A stretch of DNA of 64,000 nucleotides from positions 248,001-312,000 of the forward strand of contig CP038118.1 of assembly GCA_004519485.1 (NCBI GenBank). Direction: 5' to 3'. Origin of the DNA: Nannochloropsis oceanica. Lineage: Eukaryota > Sar > Eustigmatophyceae > Eustigmatales > Monodopsidaceae. A program made the translations under genes and the position numbers. Positions 24,217 through 58,405 of this stretch are shown piece after piece; the stretch's first letter is position 1; the number at the start of each line of letters is the position of its first letter. Below the pieces are notes generated by a model. It saw only the letters and a list, made by a program, of their open reading frames with translations. It did not search any database and was not told the DNA's origin.

Positions 24217-27200
24217 ATGGGAAGGTGGTCGGCCAGGGCGATACGTACTTTCCTCCTGCTTCTTGCGACGCCGCTTGTTTCGACGAGGGGTACGTCATCA
24301 TGTGCGGCGGTGGCTTTCGTATGGCCGCCGCCGCCGCCGCAGCAAGCCAGGCAAATTCAGACTGTGGAGACTTATGCACCTAGCTGTAGAAACGTTCGGA
24401 CTTGCACGAGCGGCAGATGTCAAGGCTTTCGTCCCGATGTCCAATCTTCGAGCATAGACAGCGGCAACTCTCGTTCTACCACCTCCAGCCCAAGCCCTAG
24501 CAGCACCAACAGTGAACGCGATCTGGCAGAGCAAGTCGTTATTCGCGTAGCAATTGAGCTGCGGCAGGGCATGAAGAAGAAACGCGGGACTTTATCTGTC
24601 AGAACACTGGAGCGAAAGCTAGAGGCCGCCCTCCGTCAAGGCAGTCTGCTCATGCCCCCGTCCACTACATCTCCCCAACTACCCAGCGACGTCCCCACCG
24701 AAAAAGAGGATGAGAGGAAAAGTCGGCAACTCCGCACCTCGACTCGCAAGCTCCTCGTCGCTCTTATTCGAGACCTTGCCCGGTTCAACATTGTCCCTTC
24801 CTTTTCTTTCTGGCATGTCTTAAGCATCTGGCTTTCCCCCCCCCTTGCCACTCTGTCCATCTCCGAGCTCGCCACGCTCACTTTGGCCTTAGCCACATTA
24901 GACGTACCTGAGGGAAGCAAGCCTCTGCTTGATGCTGTCCTCCACGCTGTGTGCACACACAAAAAGCCCCCACCCCACCACTTTTCCACTGCTGACGGGA
25001 AGCAACTTTGCAAAGCTCTCACTCTCCTCCAACGGCCCGGGGGTACCTTCCGAGCAGGATCTACACCGTTACTGTCCTGGCTTTTGGACTTACTTCAAGC
25101 AAGGGACTTAGTAGGAGAAGGTAGAGACGCTGCAGCCACTGCTGCTACTGGGAGGAGCATTGCTGAGAGTACTACTAGTAGTAGTATTGGTCGTCGTAGT
25201 AGTAGTATTGGTCGTAGTAGTAGTAGTAGTAGTAGTCGAAGTAGTAGAAGAGGTAGCAACAGCAATAGTAGCTATGGTAGTAACAATAGTAGTTATGCTA
25301 GTAGCAGTGGTAGTAGTAGTGATACAAGGCTGGTGCGTCGGCCTTTGCCGGTGCAACCTATATTCAAGCCGATGAGACGACAGACTGCTCTTACTTCCTC
25401 AGTATTGCACAGGCGAGTCGCGGATTTATTAACCTCTCTAGGCTTTGCCTGTGAGACCGAGGTTGGCTACGGCGGTCTCAACCTTGACCTTGTCCTCTAC
25501 CCTCCTCCCCTCCCTCCTGCCTTCTCTCCTCTCCTCCCCCTCATCATCGAAATTGACGGCCCGCAGCATTTTGTCCATGGCGACCCCACTCGTCCCACGG
25601 GTGCAACCGCGGCACGTCGTCGCCTGCTTCGCTCTCAATACGATCTGTGGGCTGGCTTGGTGGCAATTACTTACGCAGATGAGGAGGAGGAAAGAGGAAG
25701 GGAGGGAGGGATAGGGAGACAGGGAAGGAGAGGGCGGGCGGCGAGGTTGTTGGATGTGGTGGAGAGGAAGGTGAGGGAGGATGGGGGGATAGAGTTGGCT
25801 ATGTATCGAGCGGGCGGAATAGCTCCGGATAATGTTATTACTAATGATAATGAGGCGGGTAAAGAGGACGAGCAGAAAGAGAAGTGGGATGTAGCCAAAC
25901 GTCTCTTCCTCGCGTCATCCCCTGAAAAGCTTTTAGATATCCTGCGTGACGACAGGAATGCAGGGAGACTAGATGCCACCCATTGGGCAACGGCACTTGC
26001 GCGGATGTCGCAATTTGTCAAGCACCACTATCATCAGCATCACCGGCGCGATCAGAGCAATAGTACCGGTAAAAAAGATAGCAGCAACGACAGCAGCTAT
26101 GACACTAGTAGCACAGACAAGAAGAAAAGCGACGCGAAAGGAAGCATCGCCAAGAAACAACGCCGCGGATGGTACATGGGTCCAGAAGGCGTGCTCCGTG
26201 ATGTTGCCCATGCGCGCGAGCTGCTACAACAGTCGACTTTTCCAGCCTTGGCCCTAATGGTCGAAGGTTTGAGTGATTATTATGACTTTGAAAAATACGG
26301 GAAGCTAGAGGAAGAGGACGAGGATGAAAATGATGAAAAGGAGAGGGGAAGGGATGGTGTGAGTGATGCGCTCAATCTAGCCAACATGGCCGTCTCGAGG
26401 GTGAAAGTACTGCAGCGTGGGGTGAAGGAGGAGGAGAAGGAAAAGGAGGAGGAGCAGCAACAACAGCAGCATCAAGGCATGCAGAGGAATAGCATCCTCA
26501 TGACTTCCTCCAGCCTCGTTACCCTCCTTCGCGCCCTCTCTAAGCTGGGCTATCGCTCCCCTTCGTCGCTGCCTGTCTCTTCCACAATCCTACAAGGCAT
26601 GGCCCGTCATGGCCAGTTGGACTCGGCCGCGCTCGCCTCTGTGCTAGACAGTCTCGCTACCATTTATCTTCAGCGGCCATTTCACTCTCCTGCTCCTGCG
26701 TCTTCCTTTTCCTCTTTCTGCCCCAGCTCTCTGCCTGATGACGTGTCCGCCTGCTTGACAACCCTCCTTCGAAGCGGCGAAAGTCAGTTACACGATCTTC
26801 GTCCCCGTGACCTCGTCTCCTTTGTCAGTGCCATGGCACTCTTCAAGGAAGCAAGCCAACTCTGCCCTTCCTTCTCCTCCTCCTCTTCCTCAACGTTCTC
26901 TTCCTCTTCCTCACCAGCAGCAGCAGTGGCAGCAGCAGACGAGGAACGATTGATTGCCGCCATTGTAGGTGCAGCGGGGAAGGGCCATATATGCCAAACC
27001 CTCCCCTTGGCGGACTTGGCTTTGCTAACTTACAAAGGACCGGCCGAAGGCGACGGAGAAGGAGGCATCATCAGCCAGCGTGGACGACGGAAGTCTTTAC
27101 AGTGGCCTCTTGTCGGGGAGGTTCGACGGCGGCTCCGCGCTTTATCACCCTCAGCGTTGGTATCTTTCATGCAGCAAGACATGGCGCAGGAAGACATGGT

Positions 27201-27426
27201 GCCAGCAGCAGTGGCAACGGCGTCAGTCTCAAAATGGAAGACAAAGACAAAAAGCATGAGACGTCGACCACGGCCGACGCGTGCATTTTTGATAATGCTC
27301 ACGAATGAGCTTTATAAGCAGCGAACAGCGTTGACGGCACGAGAAAAAAGTATAGCATCAGTTCATCTTCGAGGCTGGGCCGATATCTACGATGCAGGCC
27401 CTCGATTCTGGCAACGCTTTGAATAA
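24217..27426 (+). CDS. RAP-domain organelle RNA-binding protein, probably plastid
   Basis: RAP proteins with helical repeats control RNA processing or translation in plastids and mitochondria. Single exon, 1069 residues. The N-terminus (MGRWSARAIRTFLLLLATPL...) is a signal peptide ending near SSCAAVA before FVWPPPP, which fits the A|F bipartite plastid signal. The RAP domain lies at about 393-490: RVADLLTSLGFACETEVGYG, then the core IIEIDGPQHF, then YDLWAGLVAITYADEEEE. Downstream segments such as SPEKLLDILRD...ATALARMSQF and LVTLLRALSKLGYRSPSSL look like the degenerate helical repeats (HPR/FASTK style) of this class. In most family members RAP is C-terminal; here about 570 residues follow it. 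An AGT-repeat poly-Ser block sits at about 325-370. AATAAA overlaps the stop codon at 27422-27427. Confidence 0.8.
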   Translation: MGRWSARAIRTFLLLLATPLVSTRGTSSCAAVAFVWPPPPPQQARQIQTVETYAPSCRNVRTCTSGRCQGFRPDVQSSSIDSGNSRSTTSSPSPSSTNSERDLAEQVVIRVAIELRQGMKKKRGTLSVRTLERKLEAALRQGSLLMPPSTTSPQLPSDVPTEKEDERKSRQLRTSTRKLLVALIRDLARFNIVPSFSFWHVLSIWLSPPLATLSISELATLTLALATLDVPEGSKPLLDAVLHAVCTHKKPPPHHFSTADGKQLCKALTLLQRPGGTFRAGSTPLLSWLLDLLQARDLVGEGRDAAATAATGRSIAESTTSSSIGRRSSSIGRSSSSSSSRSSRRGSNSNSSYGSNNSSYASSSGSSSDTRLVRRPLPVQPIFKPMRRQTALTSSVLHRRVADLLTSLGFACETEVGYGGLNLDLVLYPPPLPPAFSPLLPLIIEIDGPQHFVHGDPTRPTGATAARRRLLRSQYDLWAGLVAITYADEEEERGREGGIGRQGRRGRAARLLDVVERKVREDGGIELAMYRAGGIAPDNVITNDNEAGKEDEQKEKWDVAKRLFLASSPEKLLDILRDDRNAGRLDATHWATALARMSQFVKHHYHQHHRRDQSNSTGKKDSSNDSSYDTSSTDKKKSDAKGSIAKKQRRGWYMGPEGVLRDVAHARELLQQSTFPALALMVEGLSDYYDFEKYGKLEEEDEDENDEKERGRDGVSDALNLANMAVSRVKVLQRGVKEEEKEKEEEQQQQQHQGMQRNSILMTSSSLVTLLRALSKLGYRSPSSLPVSSTILQGMARHGQLDSAALASVLDSLATIYLQRPFHSPAPASSFSSFCPSSLPDDVSACLTTLLRSGESQLHDLRPRDLVSFVSAMALFKEASQLCPSFSSSSSSTFSSSSSPAAAVAAADEERLIAAIVGAAGKGHICQTLPLADLALLTYKGPAEGDGEGGIISQRGRRKSLQWPLVGEVRRRLRALSPSALVSFMQQDMAQEDMVPAAVATASVSKWKTKTKSMRRRPRPTRAFLIMLTNELYKQRTALTAREKSIASVHLRGWADIYDAGPRFWQRFE

Positions 27427-29771: not shown

Positions 29772-30647
29772 TGTCTAAAGGATTATCTGGCTTCACCGGC
29801 GTACGCAGATGGGATCTAATTGTGGATATGTGAAAAACTAAGCTATAGTGTGCGCAAAGGAGGTGCGCGCTCGATGCTGAGGGATGTGATCTGCCGGCAG
29901 CCAGGACGCAAGCGAAAAGAGACTTCGTCAATAAAATGTGAAAAAGAATGGCAAGGCATAAAGTTTTGAGCGCTCTTTCACCATTTATGTCCTTGGTTGT
30001 GGTTCAGTGCCCCTGGTGAGGCCTGAAAGGGGAGGAGAGTGCGGTAAGAGCATTTTTTGTCCCATTATTCCGCGACCCAAATCCCAAGATATACACTCCC
30101 TGACAGAAGAGGTGGGTAAAAAAATAATTACGCCACGCTCAAGTCACTCTCCTGCACATGAAAACACGCATACAGAAACAATTAAAGCGTCCAATCAAAC
30201 CAGCCAAAGTTTTCTCACCTCAACTTCCCACCACCTTTTCTTCCTCTTGCTATACCTCCGAGACTGATGTTCGCTCCGGTTCGCTCCGACATCAGGCTGA
30301 GATCTACAGCTCATCCACCCCTGGTATCGGGCCTGATATGAGGTCACTTTTGTTCACATTTTTTTTACAGTATCACGATCTTACACCTTCCAAATGTGGT
30401 TGCTTAGCCACATTCAGACCATGAGGTGATGAGGGGAGCAGGACGCGTCCGTACCACACTCAACCACATAGCACCAGTCACCAACACGCAATTCCTCACG
30501 ACACAACAGACAGGAGCGTGCTGAAAGACGTCTTTAAACCCTTCTGAGCATTGGTGCTGCCGTACTTCCTCGCCTTATTTCCTTGCATTGCGTGACAAGG
30601 CAGCAACGCATTGCAACTTGCTGCACTCGCTCCTTCCCGGACTGGAA

Positions 30648-31979
30648 ATGCCTTCATCACTACTATCATCTCCGTTCACACCGCGGCAGCAATCGCAGTA
30701 CACGCGGCAAGCCATAGCCTCCCTCATCATCGCCGTCCTGTTTGTCCTCACTGCTCCCTCTAGCATTGCCTGGCGCCTCCCACCATCCACTCCCGTCTCC
30801 TCTCCCTCCTCCTCCTCCTCCTCCTCCTCCTCCTCCTCCTCCTCCTCCTCCTCCTCCTCCTCCTCCTCCTCCTCCTCCTCCTTCTCCTCCTCCAGTCGCT
30901 GCCTTTCCCGCTCCCTACATCTCCACCACTTTACCACGCCCTTCCGATCACTCACTAACACCAGATACAGCACTACAAGTACCGCTCTTACCGCTATTCC
31001 CTCCTCAGATCCCTCGACTGGAAACCCCACCGCCCACGCGGTGAAAGACACCATCGGCACTGCCGTCAAGGAGGAGGAACGGATGGGCCCCGGGGCTCCA
31101 GAAGGCCACTGGACGGACGCGGAAAATATTAAGCGAGAACTCCAGGTTTTCTTCTCGGTGCGTGCAGTGGAGGAACAGCGTCTGCTGGACGAGAAGTCGT
31201 CGAACCCTTTAAGGAATTACCTGGGGCTGACCGATGTGGAACAAAAGCGAATTCGGAAGCGGGACGTATTAATCGATAGAAACCTCTACAGTGACCTCAA
31301 ACGGCATGGATTTGACTATTTAGTCCTACCTATTATGGAACTGGGGGGGTTTCGGGCATTTGCGCCCATGTTCGCCATTCGTGGGGATCAGCCGCCAAGG
31401 CAAGAGGACACGGGGGGGTTAGCGTTAGGTGCGGCCTTGGAGGCAAAATTAGGCACGTTGTCTGATAAGGTCTCGGCGGATCAGGGAAAGGAGGGAAGGA
31501 GGGAAGGAGGTGAGAAAGGAGAGGGGATGCCTGTTTTGCTGACGGCGGGTGTTCCTAGTCATATAAGGGATGATGAGGCGAGCTTGGATCCAGCAGGGTG
31601 GAAGAAGGGGAAGTCCGTCGTCATTGCACCAGCTAAGCCCAAAAAAGATTGGGGGAAGGAGTTTCTCCTCTCCAATCCCTCGAAGCTTTACAGCGCTCTT
31701 CTTCTCCTCGATCTCGCTGTGGGCTTCGGAAGGTCGACGATAGGAGCGCTCGATAGGGGCTTTTTGACTCCCTCCCTCCTGAACTACGTGCAGCTTGCAG
31801 CTGAAGTTGGAGTGCTGGCCAATATTCTGAGTGCGCCACTCATATTTTTGTTTGTGACCAAAGCAGGAAAGCCATGGGAATATGCCTTGCCGTTGGCGGT
31901 GAAGGCTCTTATGGGGGGGCCTGTGGCGATGGTTGAATATAAACTGAAGGGGGAGTTGGGTGGCGATGGTAGTGGGTAG
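30648..31979 (+). CDS. unknown protein, probably plastid-targeted membrane protein
   Basis: Not recognised. The first ATG in the frame is at 30648, giving 443 residues. The N-terminus has a hydrophobic signal segment (IASLIIAVLFVLTAP) ending SSIA before WRLPPST, like the A|aromatic junction of ochrophyte plastid presequences. It is followed by about 25 serines from a TCC repeat. The central part is charged and probably conserved (RELQVFFSVRAVEEQRLLDE; FDYLVLPIMELGGFRAFAPM). The C-terminal third has one or two candidate membrane helices (YVQLAAEVGVLANILSAPLI and the next residues) and ends GGDGSG. It follows the repeat island, with no partner gene nearby. Location is inferred; function unknown. 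Confidence 0.65.
   Translation: MPSSLLSSPFTPRQQSQYTRQAIASLIIAVLFVLTAPSSIAWRLPPSTPVSSPSSSSSSSSSSSSSSSSSSSSSSSSSFSSSSRCLSRSLHLHHFTTPFRSLTNTRYSTTSTALTAIPSSDPSTGNPTAHAVKDTIGTAVKEEERMGPGAPEGHWTDAENIKRELQVFFSVRAVEEQRLLDEKSSNPLRNYLGLTDVEQKRIRKRDVLIDRNLYSDLKRHGFDYLVLPIMELGGFRAFAPMFAIRGDQPPRQEDTGGLALGAALEAKLGTLSDKVSADQGKEGRREGGEKGEGMPVLLTAGVPSHIRDDEASLDPAGWKKGKSVVIAPAKPKKDWGKEFLLSNPSKLYSALLLLDLAVGFGRSTIGALDRGFLTPSLLNYVQLAAEVGVLANILSAPLIFLFVTKAGKPWEYALPLAVKALMGGPVAMVEYKLKGELGGDGSG
30807..30882. repeat. (TCC)n microsatellite inside the coding region
   Basis: About 25 perfect TCC units, encoding poly-serine just after the predicted targeting signal of the unknown plastid protein. Such a run is expected to vary in length between strains. 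Confidence 0.9.
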
Positions 31980-48920: not shown

Positions 48921-50330
48921 ATGGAGGATTCAACGCTTGATGGCGGCAGCAATCGTGTGCAAGGCGGTGGCGGGGCCATGGTTGCCCAAGAGCAAGACAC
49001 ATTGCTGCTCATGCCCTTGCCCGCCGCAGCACCCGCCGAAACCCACCACCGTGATCACGATAGCCGTGGCCACGAGGACCAGCAACACCAGCTGACCACC
49101 AACGTGGATAAGGGTGCCCTCATACTGCCCTGCGAGCCCCATGTGGCTGCTCCTCGATCACTCTTGATTGGCCCACCACCGTCAAGCAGCAGTAGCCTCC
49201 CTCCAGCCCCCACCGCCATCACACCCCCACTCACCTCGGCACAAGGCGGTCCTTGGGCATGCTTCGAGTCTGCCGGCGCATTTCCTCGTGTCGCTCATCG
49301 ACATCTCTACCTTTGGTTGGACCAAATATTGACCAGTCTGCCGGAAGACGAGCAACGGCGTGCGAAAGAGGTGGGGCCGCTCGAGTCGTTTTACCAGGAG
49401 GTTGCCAATGCAAACGCAGCTAATTCCCTGTACGACCACAGTAAGGTCACAGAATTTGTCAACAAACCTTCTCCGCACTCCCTCCTCCTCTTCCGAAAGC
49501 TCGACCGAGATGACACCCCACCTATCATGCGCAAAAAGAGGAAGACGCTCAACCAGCAGCCGCAGCAGAGCGACGACGACGACAACTTTGAAACCACCTC
49601 TACATCCCCCACCAGAGTCACAGCACTCAAACGCAGCAGAACCTACCAAAAAAATGATCAAACAATCACCTCCACTGCCACGGCCCTCAACAGCAGCACT
49701 GGCACCATCAACCTCTCTACTAATGTCCTAAAGCGGTGGAATCGAAGCAACGGGATGATTAACTGGTTCCTCTGGAAAGTCGGAGCGAAGCCCCCAGCCA
49801 CCGAAGAGGTCCTACAGCTCTCCCGCGTGCATGCTGCTAAGACGTTGTTGAAGAAAAGTAGTTCTGCCGCCGCTGCGGCTGCTGCTGCTGTTTCAGCTGC
49901 TGCTGCTGCTGTGGTGACAGGGGCAGGTGGTATGCCTGCTGATGCGCAGACACGGAGACGAAGGATGGGGAGGGCTAAGGGAAGGAAGCCTGGTGAAGAT
50001 AAGGGGGACGATGTGAAGGAGGAGGGCGAGGAAGGGGCTGAAGGGTTGGGAAAGTTGGCAGGAGCAGTTGAAGAGAGAAAAGGAGGCGAAGTAGGAGGAG
50101 AGGGAGGAGGAGGAGGAGGAGAGGGAGGAGGAAGAGGAGGAGGAGAGGGGGAGGGTGCGAGCACCAGCAGTCGCGGTAGCTGCAACAGCAACATTTTTAA
50201 TCATATCCTATTCAAGCCCAACAGTACCGAGAAAGGAGAGGGCGAGAGCACCAGCGACCATCACGTCAGCCGCAGCAGTAGCCACCACAACCACATTAGC
50301 AGCAGCAGCAGTAGCAGCAGCAGTAGTAGT

Positions 50331-50368
<38 letters not shown>

Positions 50369-52859
50369 GCAGATAATAAACGAGAATTTGGCGAAGGAGA
50401 AGCAACCCCTGAACCCACTTACTAGTGTTGTCGTTGCTGCTGCGGCTGGTGGTGGTGGTGATGGTGGTGCGAGTACCACTACTCAGATAAGAGGAGGAGG
50501 AGGAGAAGACGGAGGGGAGGAAGGAGAAACGAATGGAGACAAAGACAATATAGAGCAACAAGGGAAGGAAGAGAAGAAACAGGAGAAAGCAGTAGGAGCA
50601 GCAGCAAGGGCGACAAGTTCTTTAACCGAGGTAAAAGAAAAAGAGGAGATCCCACCTTACCTCTCCCTTCCCCCCCCCCTCCCTCCTTCCCTTCCTCGCC
50701 TTGCCACTCTCGACATGGCAGGCATCATGGCCGCAGATGCCGAGAATTTATTTAACGTCCTCTCAGCACGCCACGCTGAAGGAGGAGCAGGGGCAGGTCT
50801 GTCCCTCCCTGCCGTCCAAGCGGCTGTCGAACAAGGGTTTTGGCGACGGGTGGAGACCGAGGGAGGAGGAAGTAGAGAAGGAAGGGGGAAAGTAATGTTC
50901 GTCCCGGACGAGGGAAGGATGGAAGGCTGGTCGATGGAGAATGGAATATGGCACCACTTTGCGGATTATTGCGCAGCAAGGGGGATGAAGGTGGATACCT
51001 GTGTTTTTGATTTCAGAATGGAAATGGAGCAGAAGGAGAGGATGAGGAAGGGAGGAAGGCGGCCGATGATGCGGCCGCCGGGTAAGGGTAAGGTGGAGGG
51101 GAATGGGGAAGGTGGAAGAGGAGGAGGGGATGGGAAGATTGAGAGGAAGAGGGACGACGGAGAGGGAATGAAGGAGGGAAAGAGGGAGAGGCAGACCAAG
51201 AAAATGGAAGGGAAGAGAGTGGGAGAGGTAGAGTCGAAGGGGAAGGATAAGAGGGAAGGGGGAGAAGGAGCTGTAGTGCTAGATCAGGAGGAGCGGATGG
51301 AGGGAGGGATGCAAGTTGAGGAGGCGGGAGCGCCTAATTTTTTGAGTAGAACGGCAGCAGTCGCAGCAGCAGGAACAACAGAAGCAGCAGTAGCAGGAGG
51401 AGATGGAAGAGGAGGAAGAGGAGAGGAAGGGGGAGAAAAAAGAGATGGAGGGGAGAGAAGAGGAGGAGGGTTAGAAGAAGGAGTAGGAGGAGGTACGTAC
51501 ACTTGTAGTCCGTTTCCCTCCACCGTGCTTGTGTTGGGAGGGGGGGGAGCAGGAGGAGTAGGAGTAGGAGGAGGAGGAGGAGGAGCATCGAGCTGTGAAA
51601 GTGTTGGTGCCCAGCAGCAACAACAGCGACAACAGGACGAGGGAGACCAGCAACAGCAGCCGCAGGAGGAGTCTCTTCAGGTAGCAGTTGAGAAAGTCAA
51701 CAATCGGTTGCTCCAGCGCGTGTGCACCCTCCTCTCCTTCTCCTCCTCCTCCTTCAACGCCCCCTCCTCCCTCTCTCCCTCCCTCCCTCGCTTTCTCTCC
51801 AGCCGAATGACAGTGCGTGCGGTGTGTGTTAAAGAGAAAGAGGGAGGTAAAGAGGTGGAGGTACGACCGTTGCGCTTACTATCACTGGAGCCTCCGCTGA
51901 TTTTATTTCCGGCGTCTGTGCAGCTGGGATCGACGAAGGGGGGAAGACCGCATGGGAAGAAGGATGTGGAGGCGACGATGACTCTGGGTGTATATAAGCA
52001 GACAGAGAAGGAGAAAGGAGGAGAGGAATGGAATGGAGGAATCAATGGTAGTGGGACGAGCGGGAGCCGCCTCTGCAGGGGGCTTTTTACTTCCTCTCCC
52101 AACGTTGCGTCCGCCCCCCCTTTTGGCATTGTGCATGTGGATGCGGGGGAGGAGCGAGAGGGAGGGAATGAGGAAGGGGCGTGTATAGGGAAGGGTTGTG
52201 CGGTGGAGGAAGTGGCTGTGTCAGTGTTTGAGTTCGGGCCCGGTCGCTTCTTGACACTCTCTCTTTTTTTGGTGGGAAAGACGAGCACGAGGAAGGGAGG
52301 GAGTTCGAGGAGGAGGGATGAAGAGGAGTTAGATGCGGATGCGCGGTTTGTGGCCACATACCTGTTGAGCTCTCATGTTGATGATGCCAGCAACAGCAGG
52401 AGAACCATTACCCTCCTCTCTTCTTCTTTTTCTTCTCCTCTTCCTTCTTCTACTCCTCCTACTTCTTCTCCTTCTCTCCCAGGCCATGCTCCCGTCTTCC
52501 TTGATGATACCGCCGTCATTCAAGCAAAAAATGCCTCCTTTCTTCCCTCTTCTTCATTCTTGTCCTCTTCTTTCATCCAAAAAGAAGATCTTGGTGTTCT
52601 ACGCTTTTGGGGGCAGACGAAGGAGCAGCAAGCGCAGCAGGAGCAGCAAGTGCAGCAGAAGCAGCAACAGCAGCAGGAGGTGGCATCGCTGAATCTAAAG
52701 ACATTAGGTGATGTGCTGCGACAGTCCTTAGTCATGCCATTGGGGGAATTTGTGGCCATGACGGGAGGAAGGGGAGAGGGGGAAGGGGGAAAGGAAGAGC
52801 ATCGGCACCAGCACCAGGAGGAGCACGATGTTGGGCTGCTGACAGTGGAGGAAATCTAG
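48921..52859 (+). CDS. large unknown low-complexity protein
   Basis: Not recognised. Single exon, 1312 residues, starting at an ATG in GGCCATGGAG; the AATACAG just before suggests a 5'-UTR intron may end there. The N-terminal 230 residues contain an ordered-looking block (RVAHRHLYLWLDQILTSLPE, VGPLESFYQEVANANAANSL, MINWFLWKVGAKPP). Long Ala, Ser, Gly-Glu and Asn/Gln runs follow, including about 20 serines from AGC/AGT repeats near residue 470. A second ordered block lies at about 595-700 (LDMAGIMAADAENLFNVLSA, GIWHHFADYCAARGMKVD). A third covers the last 370 residues, ending VMPLGEFVAMTGGRG and an acidic His-rich tail. AATAAA at 52886-52891 follows the stop closely. Possibly a nuclear regulator; no domain name is justified. 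Confidence 0.65.
50298..50368. repeat. (AGC/AGT)n microsatellite inside coding region
   Basis: About 23 serine codons in a row within the large unknown protein. The complementary strand would read poly-Ala, Cys or Leu, which explains the long antisense shadow frames here. Confidence 0.85.
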
Positions 52860-56705: not shown

Positions 56706-56750
<45 letters not shown>

Positions 56751-56884
56751 TGCTCATGCTACTGCAGCTGGTCGATGATAGTGCTAGGGTGGGTCATGGT
56801 TGTCATTCTTTTTGTACTATTTAATAGCATCTTTCTTGTCTTGTTGTCTACCTATCCGCCGAAGAAGTGGATGGATAGAAGCAT
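56115..56884. other. intergenic between convergent dipeptidase and NFU genes
   Basis: About 770 bp of 3' flanks. It contains a CTG microsatellite at 56708-56748. No gene or RNA seen. Confidence 0.5.
56708..56748. repeat. (CTG)n microsatellite
   Basis: About 13 perfect CTG units outside any gene I can support, 137 bp past the 3' end of the NFU-fusion gene on the opposite strand, so it may lie in that gene's 3' UTR. Confidence 0.9.
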
Positions 56885-58405
56885 CTATACACTCTTCACA
56901 TCCGTCACCCCTGGCTGCCCCTTTAAAGCGTACACCACTCCCAATTTTACCTTCTCTGGACCCTTGTAACAAAGACTCACCACGCCTTCCTCGCTCACGT
57001 CCTCAATCGTTGCAGACGCTCCCAACCCTCGAATCGCCGGCAAAATTTCTTCTAACTTCCCCTCCAATTTCCTCTTCAGTGCTGCTGCTTCTGTCAGCGG
57101 CGTCCCTGCCTCGTCAACCGCTTGAGGCTCTGCTGAGATCGCTTCGATACGATTCAAATTTTCAAATTTTTCACGGAGCACGCGCTCGACTCCCATCTTC
57201 ATGGTAGTGGTGGAAGAAGGACAGGAACCGCAAGCACCTTGAAGGCGAAGGAAGATGTCGCGGGCGGCGACGTCGATCGAGACGATTTCGATGTTGCCAC
57301 CATCTGAAATGAGGTAGGGCCGGACTTCTTCTAAAACTATATCTACATTCTCAGGAGTCAGCGCCAGGAGACCATCGCTCACGGAAGGGGAAGAAGAATC
57401 ACCTCCATTGAACGGGCTCACAATCACCGCTGCTGGTGCTGCGGGTGCTGCTCGTGCTGCTACCTCCTGTGGTGCTTGCTTCTTGATCGTTGCTTGGGTC
57501 TGTCCATCGATAACACCAGACCAGTCACTCTGTTCCACCGCCTTCTTTAACTGGGCCCTCCTAAACATCCTCTCATCCTCCGCCTCCTCCCCGTACTCCT
57601 CCTCCTCGTCCAAGTCATCCAATTCATCCGCCAAGGTTGGATCAGCCATAGCTGTCCTCAACTTCGTCTTGGTATCCTCGTAAGCTGCCCTTTCCTCCGC
57701 CGTACTCCCACTTCCCTGCTCTACCGCTTCCTTAATCGATTTTGCCCAACCACCATTCCCGTTCCCTCCCTCACGGTTCCCATCTGGGACTATATGAGCA
57801 GCCGAGAGCTCTGCAAGCCAAGTTTCTTGCGCCGCGGCCATCTCTTCTCGCTTGGGAAATTTGAAACTTTGCAGCGCCACGGACGAGACGACCTCGGCCC
57901 CATGCACCTGTAGGTGCCCTGTGAGCGACACAACCACGTTGCGCGTCACCCCCACATATTGCAAGGTTTGCTTCGCGTCATACACACCATAGACAGCCGC
58001 CAAACGCACGTCTTTGAATCGATCTAAAAACGCGGCAACGGGCAGCGGGGTCTGGGTCCGTGTGAACGCCTCCGCTTCTGCTGCCGCTGCAGAGGTGGCC
58101 CCGTGGTCATTGTTGTCGCCGTACAAAAACTCGTGCAGGCCCTTGTGCCCCTCGGGTACATTGTCATCCGCAGCTACGGCTGTGACCGCAGAAACGCCCG
58201 AGGCGGAGCTTTCAAGGGCGGCAGGGCGGGTTGCCGTGTTGGTGGCAGAGGAGGAAGGGCTGTGGTGCCTGATGGTGACAGGAGCGGTCTTGGGCGTGAG
58301 GACAAGGAAGGCCTGCACGAGTTCTTGTTGCTGTTGGAAGAAGCTGATCCCACCCAGCAAAAGGACCATGGCTGCGGCTGTCGTTGTCGGACATCTTCTC
58401 ATCAT
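56885..58405 (-). CDS. GIY-YIG / NFU fusion, plastid iron-sulfur cluster scaffold
   Basis: Predicted to carry and hand over Fe-S clusters in the plastid. From the ATG at 58405 the protein has 506 residues, no intron. A signal peptide (AAAMVLLLGGISFFQQQQ) ends ELVQA before FLVLTPK, the A|F bipartite plastid signal. Residues about 118-172 are a GIY-YIG domain (AAVYGVYDAKQTLQYVGVTR, then NVVVSLTGHL) of the type fused to glutaredoxin in plant GRXS16. Residues about 348-412 are the NFU domain (VRPYLISDGGNIEIVSIDVA) with the cluster-binding CxxC in GACGSCPSST. The last 75 residues (LEEILPAIRGLGASATIEDV ... GVTDVKSV) are a second NFU-like domain without the cysteines, as in plant plastid NFU1-3. An acidic linker joins the halves. 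Domain calls are firm; the role of GIY-YIG is unknown. Confidence 0.9.
   Translation of the reverse strand: MMRRCPTTTAAAMVLLLGGISFFQQQQELVQAFLVLTPKTAPVTIRHHSPSSSATNTATRPAALESSASGVSAVTAVAADDNVPEGHKGLHEFLYGDNNDHGATSAAAAEAEAFTRTQTPLPVAAFLDRFKDVRLAAVYGVYDAKQTLQYVGVTRNVVVSLTGHLQVHGAEVVSSVALQSFKFPKREEMAAAQETWLAELSAAHIVPDGNREGGNGNGGWAKSIKEAVEQGSGSTAEERAAYEDTKTKLRTAMADPTLADELDDLDEEEEYGEEAEDERMFRRAQLKKAVEQSDWSGVIDGQTQATIKKQAPQEVAARAAPAAPAAVIVSPFNGGDSSSPSVSDGLLALTPENVDIVLEEVRPYLISDGGNIEIVSIDVAARDIFLRLQGACGSCPSSTTTMKMGVERVLREKFENLNRIEAISAEPQAVDEAGTPLTEAAALKRKLEGKLEEILPAIRGLGASATIEDVSEEGVVSLCYKGPEKVKLGVVYALKGQPGVTDVKSV

Follow-up and report, generated by a model that had tools for sequence, protein, structure and literature searches.

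What does a GIY-YIG domain, a fold known from nucleases such as UvrC, do at the front of a plastid iron–sulfur (Fe-S) carrier? The question is raised by a gene of Nannochloropsis oceanica that lies in the window analyzed here, a stretch of 64,000 nucleotides (contig CP038118.1, positions 248,001 to 312,000). Two reviews that describe proteins of this type leave the role of the GIY-YIG module on plastid Fe-S carriers open in the sections drawn on here (PMC3721309, PMC8003979). An initial annotation had noted in the gene a fusion of an NFU scaffold with a GIY-YIG domain; the observation as a whole is confirmed, and the interpretation attached to it is supported in part. The features of the 506-amino-acid fusion protein, labeled P0001 (GIY-YIG module plus NFU), are the following, in window coordinates.

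56885..58405, minus strand: whole coding frame, 506 amino acids and stop codon (open-reading-frame reading)
58166..58405, minus strand: presequence, residues 1-80, with a signal-like core, a VQA/F site and then a Ser/Thr-rich stretch (by eye)
57488..58162, minus strand: module, residues 82-306, colinear with a cyanobacterial long-family protein (BLASTP, 36% identity, E 5e-34)
57761..58006, minus strand: GIY-YIG core, residues 134-215, GRXS16-like (PDB 2lwf, E 3.4e-8)
57557..57628, minus strand: acidic insertion within the module, approximately residues 260-283 (alignments to the long family)
57371..57487, minus strand: hinge, residues 307-345, without a match (gap between the NFU and long-family matches)
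57125..57370, minus strand: NFU domain, residues 346-427 (Pfam NifU, E 2.6e-23; 2z51, E 2.5e-27)
57221..57232, minus strand: CGSC, residues 392-395, presumed cluster ligands (Cys392 and Cys395 aligned with the CGSC of 2z51)
56888..57100, minus strand: degenerate NFU-fold domain without CxxC, residues 436-506 (best fold matches are NFU domains)

The frame is single and uninterrupted, as annotated. It runs for 506 codons on the minus strand, compared with stop-free runs of at most 137 codons in the other five frames at 56885..58405, which rules out a chance or mis-framed reading. A plastid-type NFU domain and a GRXS16-like GIY-YIG core do sit in one protein (Pfam NifU; PDB 2lwf). The "acidic linker" placed between them needs revision: the acidic insertion is present, but most of the supposed linker is part of the cyanobacterial-type module. 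By eye, the presequence resembles the start of an NFU protein encoded on contig C13 of the same genome. A signal core, a VQA/F site and a Ser/Thr-rich start make up a style that we take to be that of secondary red plastids, and P0001 is probably located in the plastid. As to the surroundings of the gene, a CTG-type triplet run (56709-56752) lies about 130 bases past the stop codon, and a plus-strand frame of peptidase family C69 (53741-55588, 615 amino acids) adjoins it. Three further long frames of the plus strand, at 24217-27426 (1069 amino acids), 30588-31979 (463) and 48921-52859 (1312), have no Pfam match at E 0.001.

The NFU half is recognized both by Pfam, with NifU (PF01106) at residues 355-420, and by PDB sequences, AtNFU2 (2z51) being accompanied by other NFU domains. 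The annotated CxxC motif is the CGSC of this domain. Membership of the NFU family predicts a cluster-carrier function, in which these cysteines would bind the cluster. The degenerate second NFU domain is borne out on the predicted fold, where the best matches of the C-terminal domain are NFU domains; its sequence-level match is weak or absent. The full-length model of P0001 is poor except at the C-terminus (mean pLDDT 39.6), so no active site is mappable on it. No GIY-YIG chain appears among the 50 matches listed for this model in the fold search, because the C-terminal domain fills the list; with sequence included in the ranking, Foldseek places 2lwf first (E 7.1e-4). The C-terminal part modeled alone loses its second helix and has low confidence. 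Plastid NFU2/CnfU (2z51) likewise has a degenerate NFU domain after the one with CGSC; it differs from P0001 in having no GIY-YIG module.

The GIY-YIG-NFU architecture has been described before, from algae and land plants, in reviews of 2013 (PMC3721309) and 2021 (PMC8003979), both cited here from partial texts. The earlier one reports the fusion in some algae, P. patens and Picea, and describes it as seemingly absent from the other angiosperms analyzed; it also mentions two Nfu domains. The same source finds that the NFU-fused domain resembles GRXS16 only moderately, considers that the domains perhaps go back to two cyanobacterial ancestor genes, and points to a functional relationship. In the later review, CrNFU1 combines GIY-YIG and NFU but has no second NFU domain. 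Many microalgae are said to have proteins like it, and orthologs are stated to occur throughout the terrestrial plants apart from dicots, which lost the fusion; its distribution is said to follow no clear pattern. In these excerpts the two reviews therefore differ on angiosperms, the fusion being absent from the other angiosperms analyzed in one and from dicots in the other. Both contradict the annotated statement that plant plastid NFU proteins lack the GIY-YIG domain. Table 2 of PMC8003979, as excerpted, ticks NFU1 for Nannochloropsis oceanica, Ectocarpus, Vitrella and Galdieria, among others, and leaves it unticked for Phaeodactylum, Ochromonas and Aureococcus. We read a tick as presence of the fusion, as the table does not restate the domains. 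On this reading, the annotation's question of whether the fusion had been described in ochrophytes is answered by the ticks for N. oceanica and Ectocarpus. Compared by published descriptions, P0001 and algal and plant NFU1 (Chlamydomonas) share a GIY-YIG module of about 200 amino acids at the N-terminus, followed by a CxxC NFU domain of plastid type. CrNFU1 differs in its C-terminus, in that P0001 has an additional NFU-like fold there.

Sequence comparison places the front half of P0001 in a cyanobacterial family. The N-terminal domain of GRXS16 (2lwf) matches the core of the module, and the match improves to E 6e-9 with the domain alone as query; the Pfam search of P0001 gives no GIY-YIG match up to E 1 and no glutaredoxin match. 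With the GIY-YIG core as query, prokaryote genomes yielded 63 candidate stretches, from which two cyanobacterial loci were confirmed. The free-standing cyanobacterial protein L019, of 220 amino acids, covers residues 82-306 of P0001 from end to end. Searched against 386 genomes drawn from the cyanobacterial phylum, L019 finds a match at E ≤0.001 in 107. The match is of the long-family type, at E 2.5e-40 or better, in 25 of these genomes (G064 and G161 with internal stops); in the other 82 it lies mainly in the core, two cases being doubtful (G011, G272). The short family consists of 20 chosen core-only proteins that we read, with a C-terminus like RFNPKLKEQGLLDLK. Profile comparison relates the two families at E 5e-27, and NCBIfam has no family for L019, L079 or the second algal gene described below (L007).

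P0001 carries the traits of the long family in the same order: the NVPxxHxxLHxFLY block, the GIY-YIG core and the C-terminal block. Each end of the module is recognized on its own by the long-family profile, the C-terminal part with 60.1 bits (18 of 21 rows used) and the N-terminal part with 40.9 bits (21 of 21 rows), each with 0 of 2000 shuffles. By these alignments, the front half is a complete cyanobacterial long-family protein that was joined upstream of NFU, and the module may be of endosymbiotic origin. Viral relatives of either the module or the NFU half were dropped from consideration, as none was confirmed among the viral contigs scanned.

The genome of the alga (29.26 Mb in 32 contigs) was searched with one protein per family as query, and only the fusion locus and a locus on C16 were found. 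The latter, L007 (1246-1809 and beyond; C16:563524-564477), is a second gene for a GRXS16-type domain. It matches the short-family query in two stretches, at 39% and 49% identity, the further stretch (49%) holding the short-family C-terminus. The part of L007 that was read contains no carrier domain, and by sequence the gene is likely an ortholog of the short cyanobacterial family. Nine glutaredoxin matches lie on C2, C6, C10, C19, C22 and C25 and none on C16 or C20, that is, on contigs other than those of the GIY-YIG-type loci; no GRXS16 fusion (GIY-YIG plus glutaredoxin) is therefore seen in the genome. In the excerpt of PMC8003979, heterokonts likewise have a blank GRX6 column. A separate, intron-split NFU gene (L005, C13:95329-95910), with a plastid-type start, a CGSC domain and a degenerate second domain, looks like an ordinary NFU2-type carrier. 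With this gene present, the fusion would seem to be an extra carrier. A third NFU locus (L001, C1:732063-732257) has an upstream frame that reads, by eye, like a mitochondrial NFU N-terminal domain.

According to the initial annotation, P0001 and GRXS16 bear the same accessory domain. We compared the two in a tree of 44 rows and 97 columns, comprising P0001, 21 long rows, 20 short rows, GRXS16 and L007. One branch, supported at 100/96, separates P0001 and the 21 long rows from GRXS16, L007 and the 20 short rows. The tree test rejects a grouping of P0001 with nothing but the short rows (p-AU 0.004); once GRXS16 and L007 are added to that group, it does not (p-AU 0.25). For GRXS16 joined to the long rows, p-AU is 0.08. 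The branch of GRXS16 is very long (2.34), which makes its placement tentative. Profile scores favor the long family for P0001 (90.5 bits versus 56.9 for the short) and the short family for both L007 (92.7 versus 47.4 for the long) and GRXS16 (70.5 versus 56.4). These comparisons suggest that the NFU-fused module groups with the long family, while GRXS16 has its higher score with the short one and a tentative place in the tree. The two have a homologous core; the grouping of P0001 with the long family and the better short-family score of GRXS16 speak against one and the same domain, although the test does not reject a sister relationship of GRXS16 and P0001 (p-AU 0.25).

Would the module still cut DNA? 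Profile comparison aligns it with canonical GIY-YIG domains at E about 1e-6. The canonical set holds 18 rows from 10 cyanobacterial genomes, out of 25 matches; L109, L110, L115 and L117, which are long- or short-family members, and L108, L116 and L111 were left out. All 18 rows have an arginine ten residues past the YIG tyrosine. The same position is serine in every long (21/21) and short (20/20) row, in GRXS16, in L007 and in P0001 (Ser160), which accordingly lacks the catalytic arginine in the helix after YIG. The metal-binding glutamate is paired with Q193 by hhalign, and the adjoining E194 might stand in for it. At a second candidate column, 40 of the 41 cyanobacterial rows and L007 have Glu, P0001 has Ala190 and GRXS16 has Thr. 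The first-motif glycine, present in all 41 cyanobacterial rows, is Ala137. P0001 keeps Tyr139, Tyr150, Gly152 and His164 (L007 has Asn at this last position), as well as Arg155 beside the YIG motif, an arginine in 41 of 41 cyanobacterial rows. In comparison with UvrC and other canonical nucleases, P0001 shares the core motif and is devoid of the catalytic arginine and probably of the glutamate.

The cysteine of the 2lwf stretch, which we take to be Cys123, the partner in the disulfide of GRXS16, occupies a column in which all 41 cyanobacterial rows have Cys, P0001 has Val and L007 has Thr; residues 6-391 of P0001 contain no cysteine at all. For GRXS16, an intramolecular disulfide involving Cys123 of the GIY-YIG domain has been reported, as has DNA cleavage by the GIY-YIG domain of AtGRXS16 (review PMC5890173, in excerpt). 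The loss of this cysteine disfavors a switch of the GRXS16 type, and with it the annotated proposal of redox control through the GIY-YIG domain. DNA cutting is disfavored because the arginine is missing and there is no clear glutamate, which fits the annotated preference for a role other than cutting. As the AtGRXS16 domain also has the serine and is reported to cleave, the missing arginine is no proof of inactivity. The case against nuclease and switch is made only by residues, which argue for a module without a recognizable GIY-YIG active site. The stand-alone long-family proteins (L019 and 20 rows) are colinear with the whole front half and fall on the same side of the tree; they differ in being free proteins of about 220 amino acids with no NFU, which keep the cysteine, the first-motif glycine and, in 20 of 21, the glutamate, all lost in P0001. 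The GRXS16 domain shares with P0001 the core, the serine and the setting of a late plastid Fe-S carrier; it differs in its glutaredoxin partner, its retained cysteine and its better score with the short family.

With moderate confidence, we take P0001 for a plastid Fe-S carrier that acts late, belongs to the GIY-YIG-NFU ("NFU1") type and has a pseudo-nuclease docking module. The first NFU domain would bind a cluster through CGSC and hand it on, the degenerate second one may help to contact the scaffold or the client, and the N-terminal module would be the docking surface that brings the carrier to its partner or client. An unlikely alternative is a module that attaches to plastid DNA or RNA but leaves it uncut, tethering the carrier to nucleic acid or to the translation of Fe-S apoproteins. 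GIY-YIG ancestry with a missing active-site arginine is the pattern of a binding-only derivative, and the invariant Arg155 fits it as well, but the long-family C-terminal part of the module is acidic, with a charge of -13 over residues 236-306. We give less credence again to a tolerated passenger or stability domain with no specific role: such a domain could have lost the near-invariant cyanobacterial residues (Gly137, Glu190 and the Cys column) and have the patchy distribution, with dicot loss, outlined in the excerpt of PMC8003979, yet the module is colinear over its full length and the same source has the fusion kept in many algae and plants. Still less probable is the idea put forward in the cited part of PMC3721309, an active or conditional nuclease with the NFU half as supplier or sensor of metal or of cluster state. 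The four conserved residues and the activity reported for the AtGRXS16 domain (PMC5890173, in excerpt) speak for it; against it are Ser160 for the catalytic arginine, no Glu at Q193 or A190 (E194 adjoins) and Ala137 for glycine. That two genes or transcripts have been misread as one is very improbable despite crude in-frame intron candidates, given a single 506-codon frame, an NFU half that alone would have no presequence, a first methionine past the hinge that lies within the NFU domain (Met402) and the same domain order published for other species (PMC3721309, PMC8003979, as excerpted).

Against the docking reading that we prefer, the recurring neighbors of the free cyanobacterial genes show no direct Fe-S link. 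We clustered the neighbors at 20 long- and 20 short-family loci and searched one example per recurring cluster (at least 3 of 20) against families, leaving out one repeat-rich long-family cluster (5/20). Among the searched neighbors that recur in at least 3 of 20 long-family loci there is no Fe-S assembly gene. A sugar-type ABC permease is near the gene in 12 of 20. Five of 20 have, on the opposite strand, a FecE-like iron-uptake ABC ATPase (272.9 bits, under the family cut-off of 375), which is no more than a hint at iron; the example is the following.

L059 6161-7111, minus strand: FecE-like ATPase (loci L054-L072)

A cluster with an aldo/keto reductase as example recurs in 5 of 20 long-family loci, an ABC-2 transporter in 4, and a leucyl-tRNA synthetase, a SAM hydrolase-like protein and a BFA1/DUF3598 protein in 3 each. 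At the short-family loci, a small upstream protein without a Pfam or NCBIfam match recurs in 9 of 20 (e.g., L077 4137-4520) and the remaining recurring neighbors in 3 or 4; no recurring neighbor of these 20 loci gives an Fe-S or iron hint.

To the published architecture, the present analysis adds the extent of the borrowed module, its lost residues and a test, for one protein, of the two-ancestor idea. The lost residues would argue against both of the functions that have been suggested, as a nuclease and as a thiol switch. With the NFU-fused module placed in a family of free cyanobacterial proteins, its role can be asked without the fusion. Possible, though rather doubtful, is that the long and the short cyanobacterial proteins were fused independently to NFU and to glutaredoxin S16; in that case the free cyanobacterial proteins, like the short-family gene retained in the alga, would be expected to partner Nfu or a monothiol glutaredoxin. 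Two ancestral genes and a functional relationship were already proposed in the part of PMC3721309 cited here; free proteins as trans-acting Fe-S partners are a further step. If this were true, the free proteins would represent an unrecognized late Fe-S factor in cyanobacteria.
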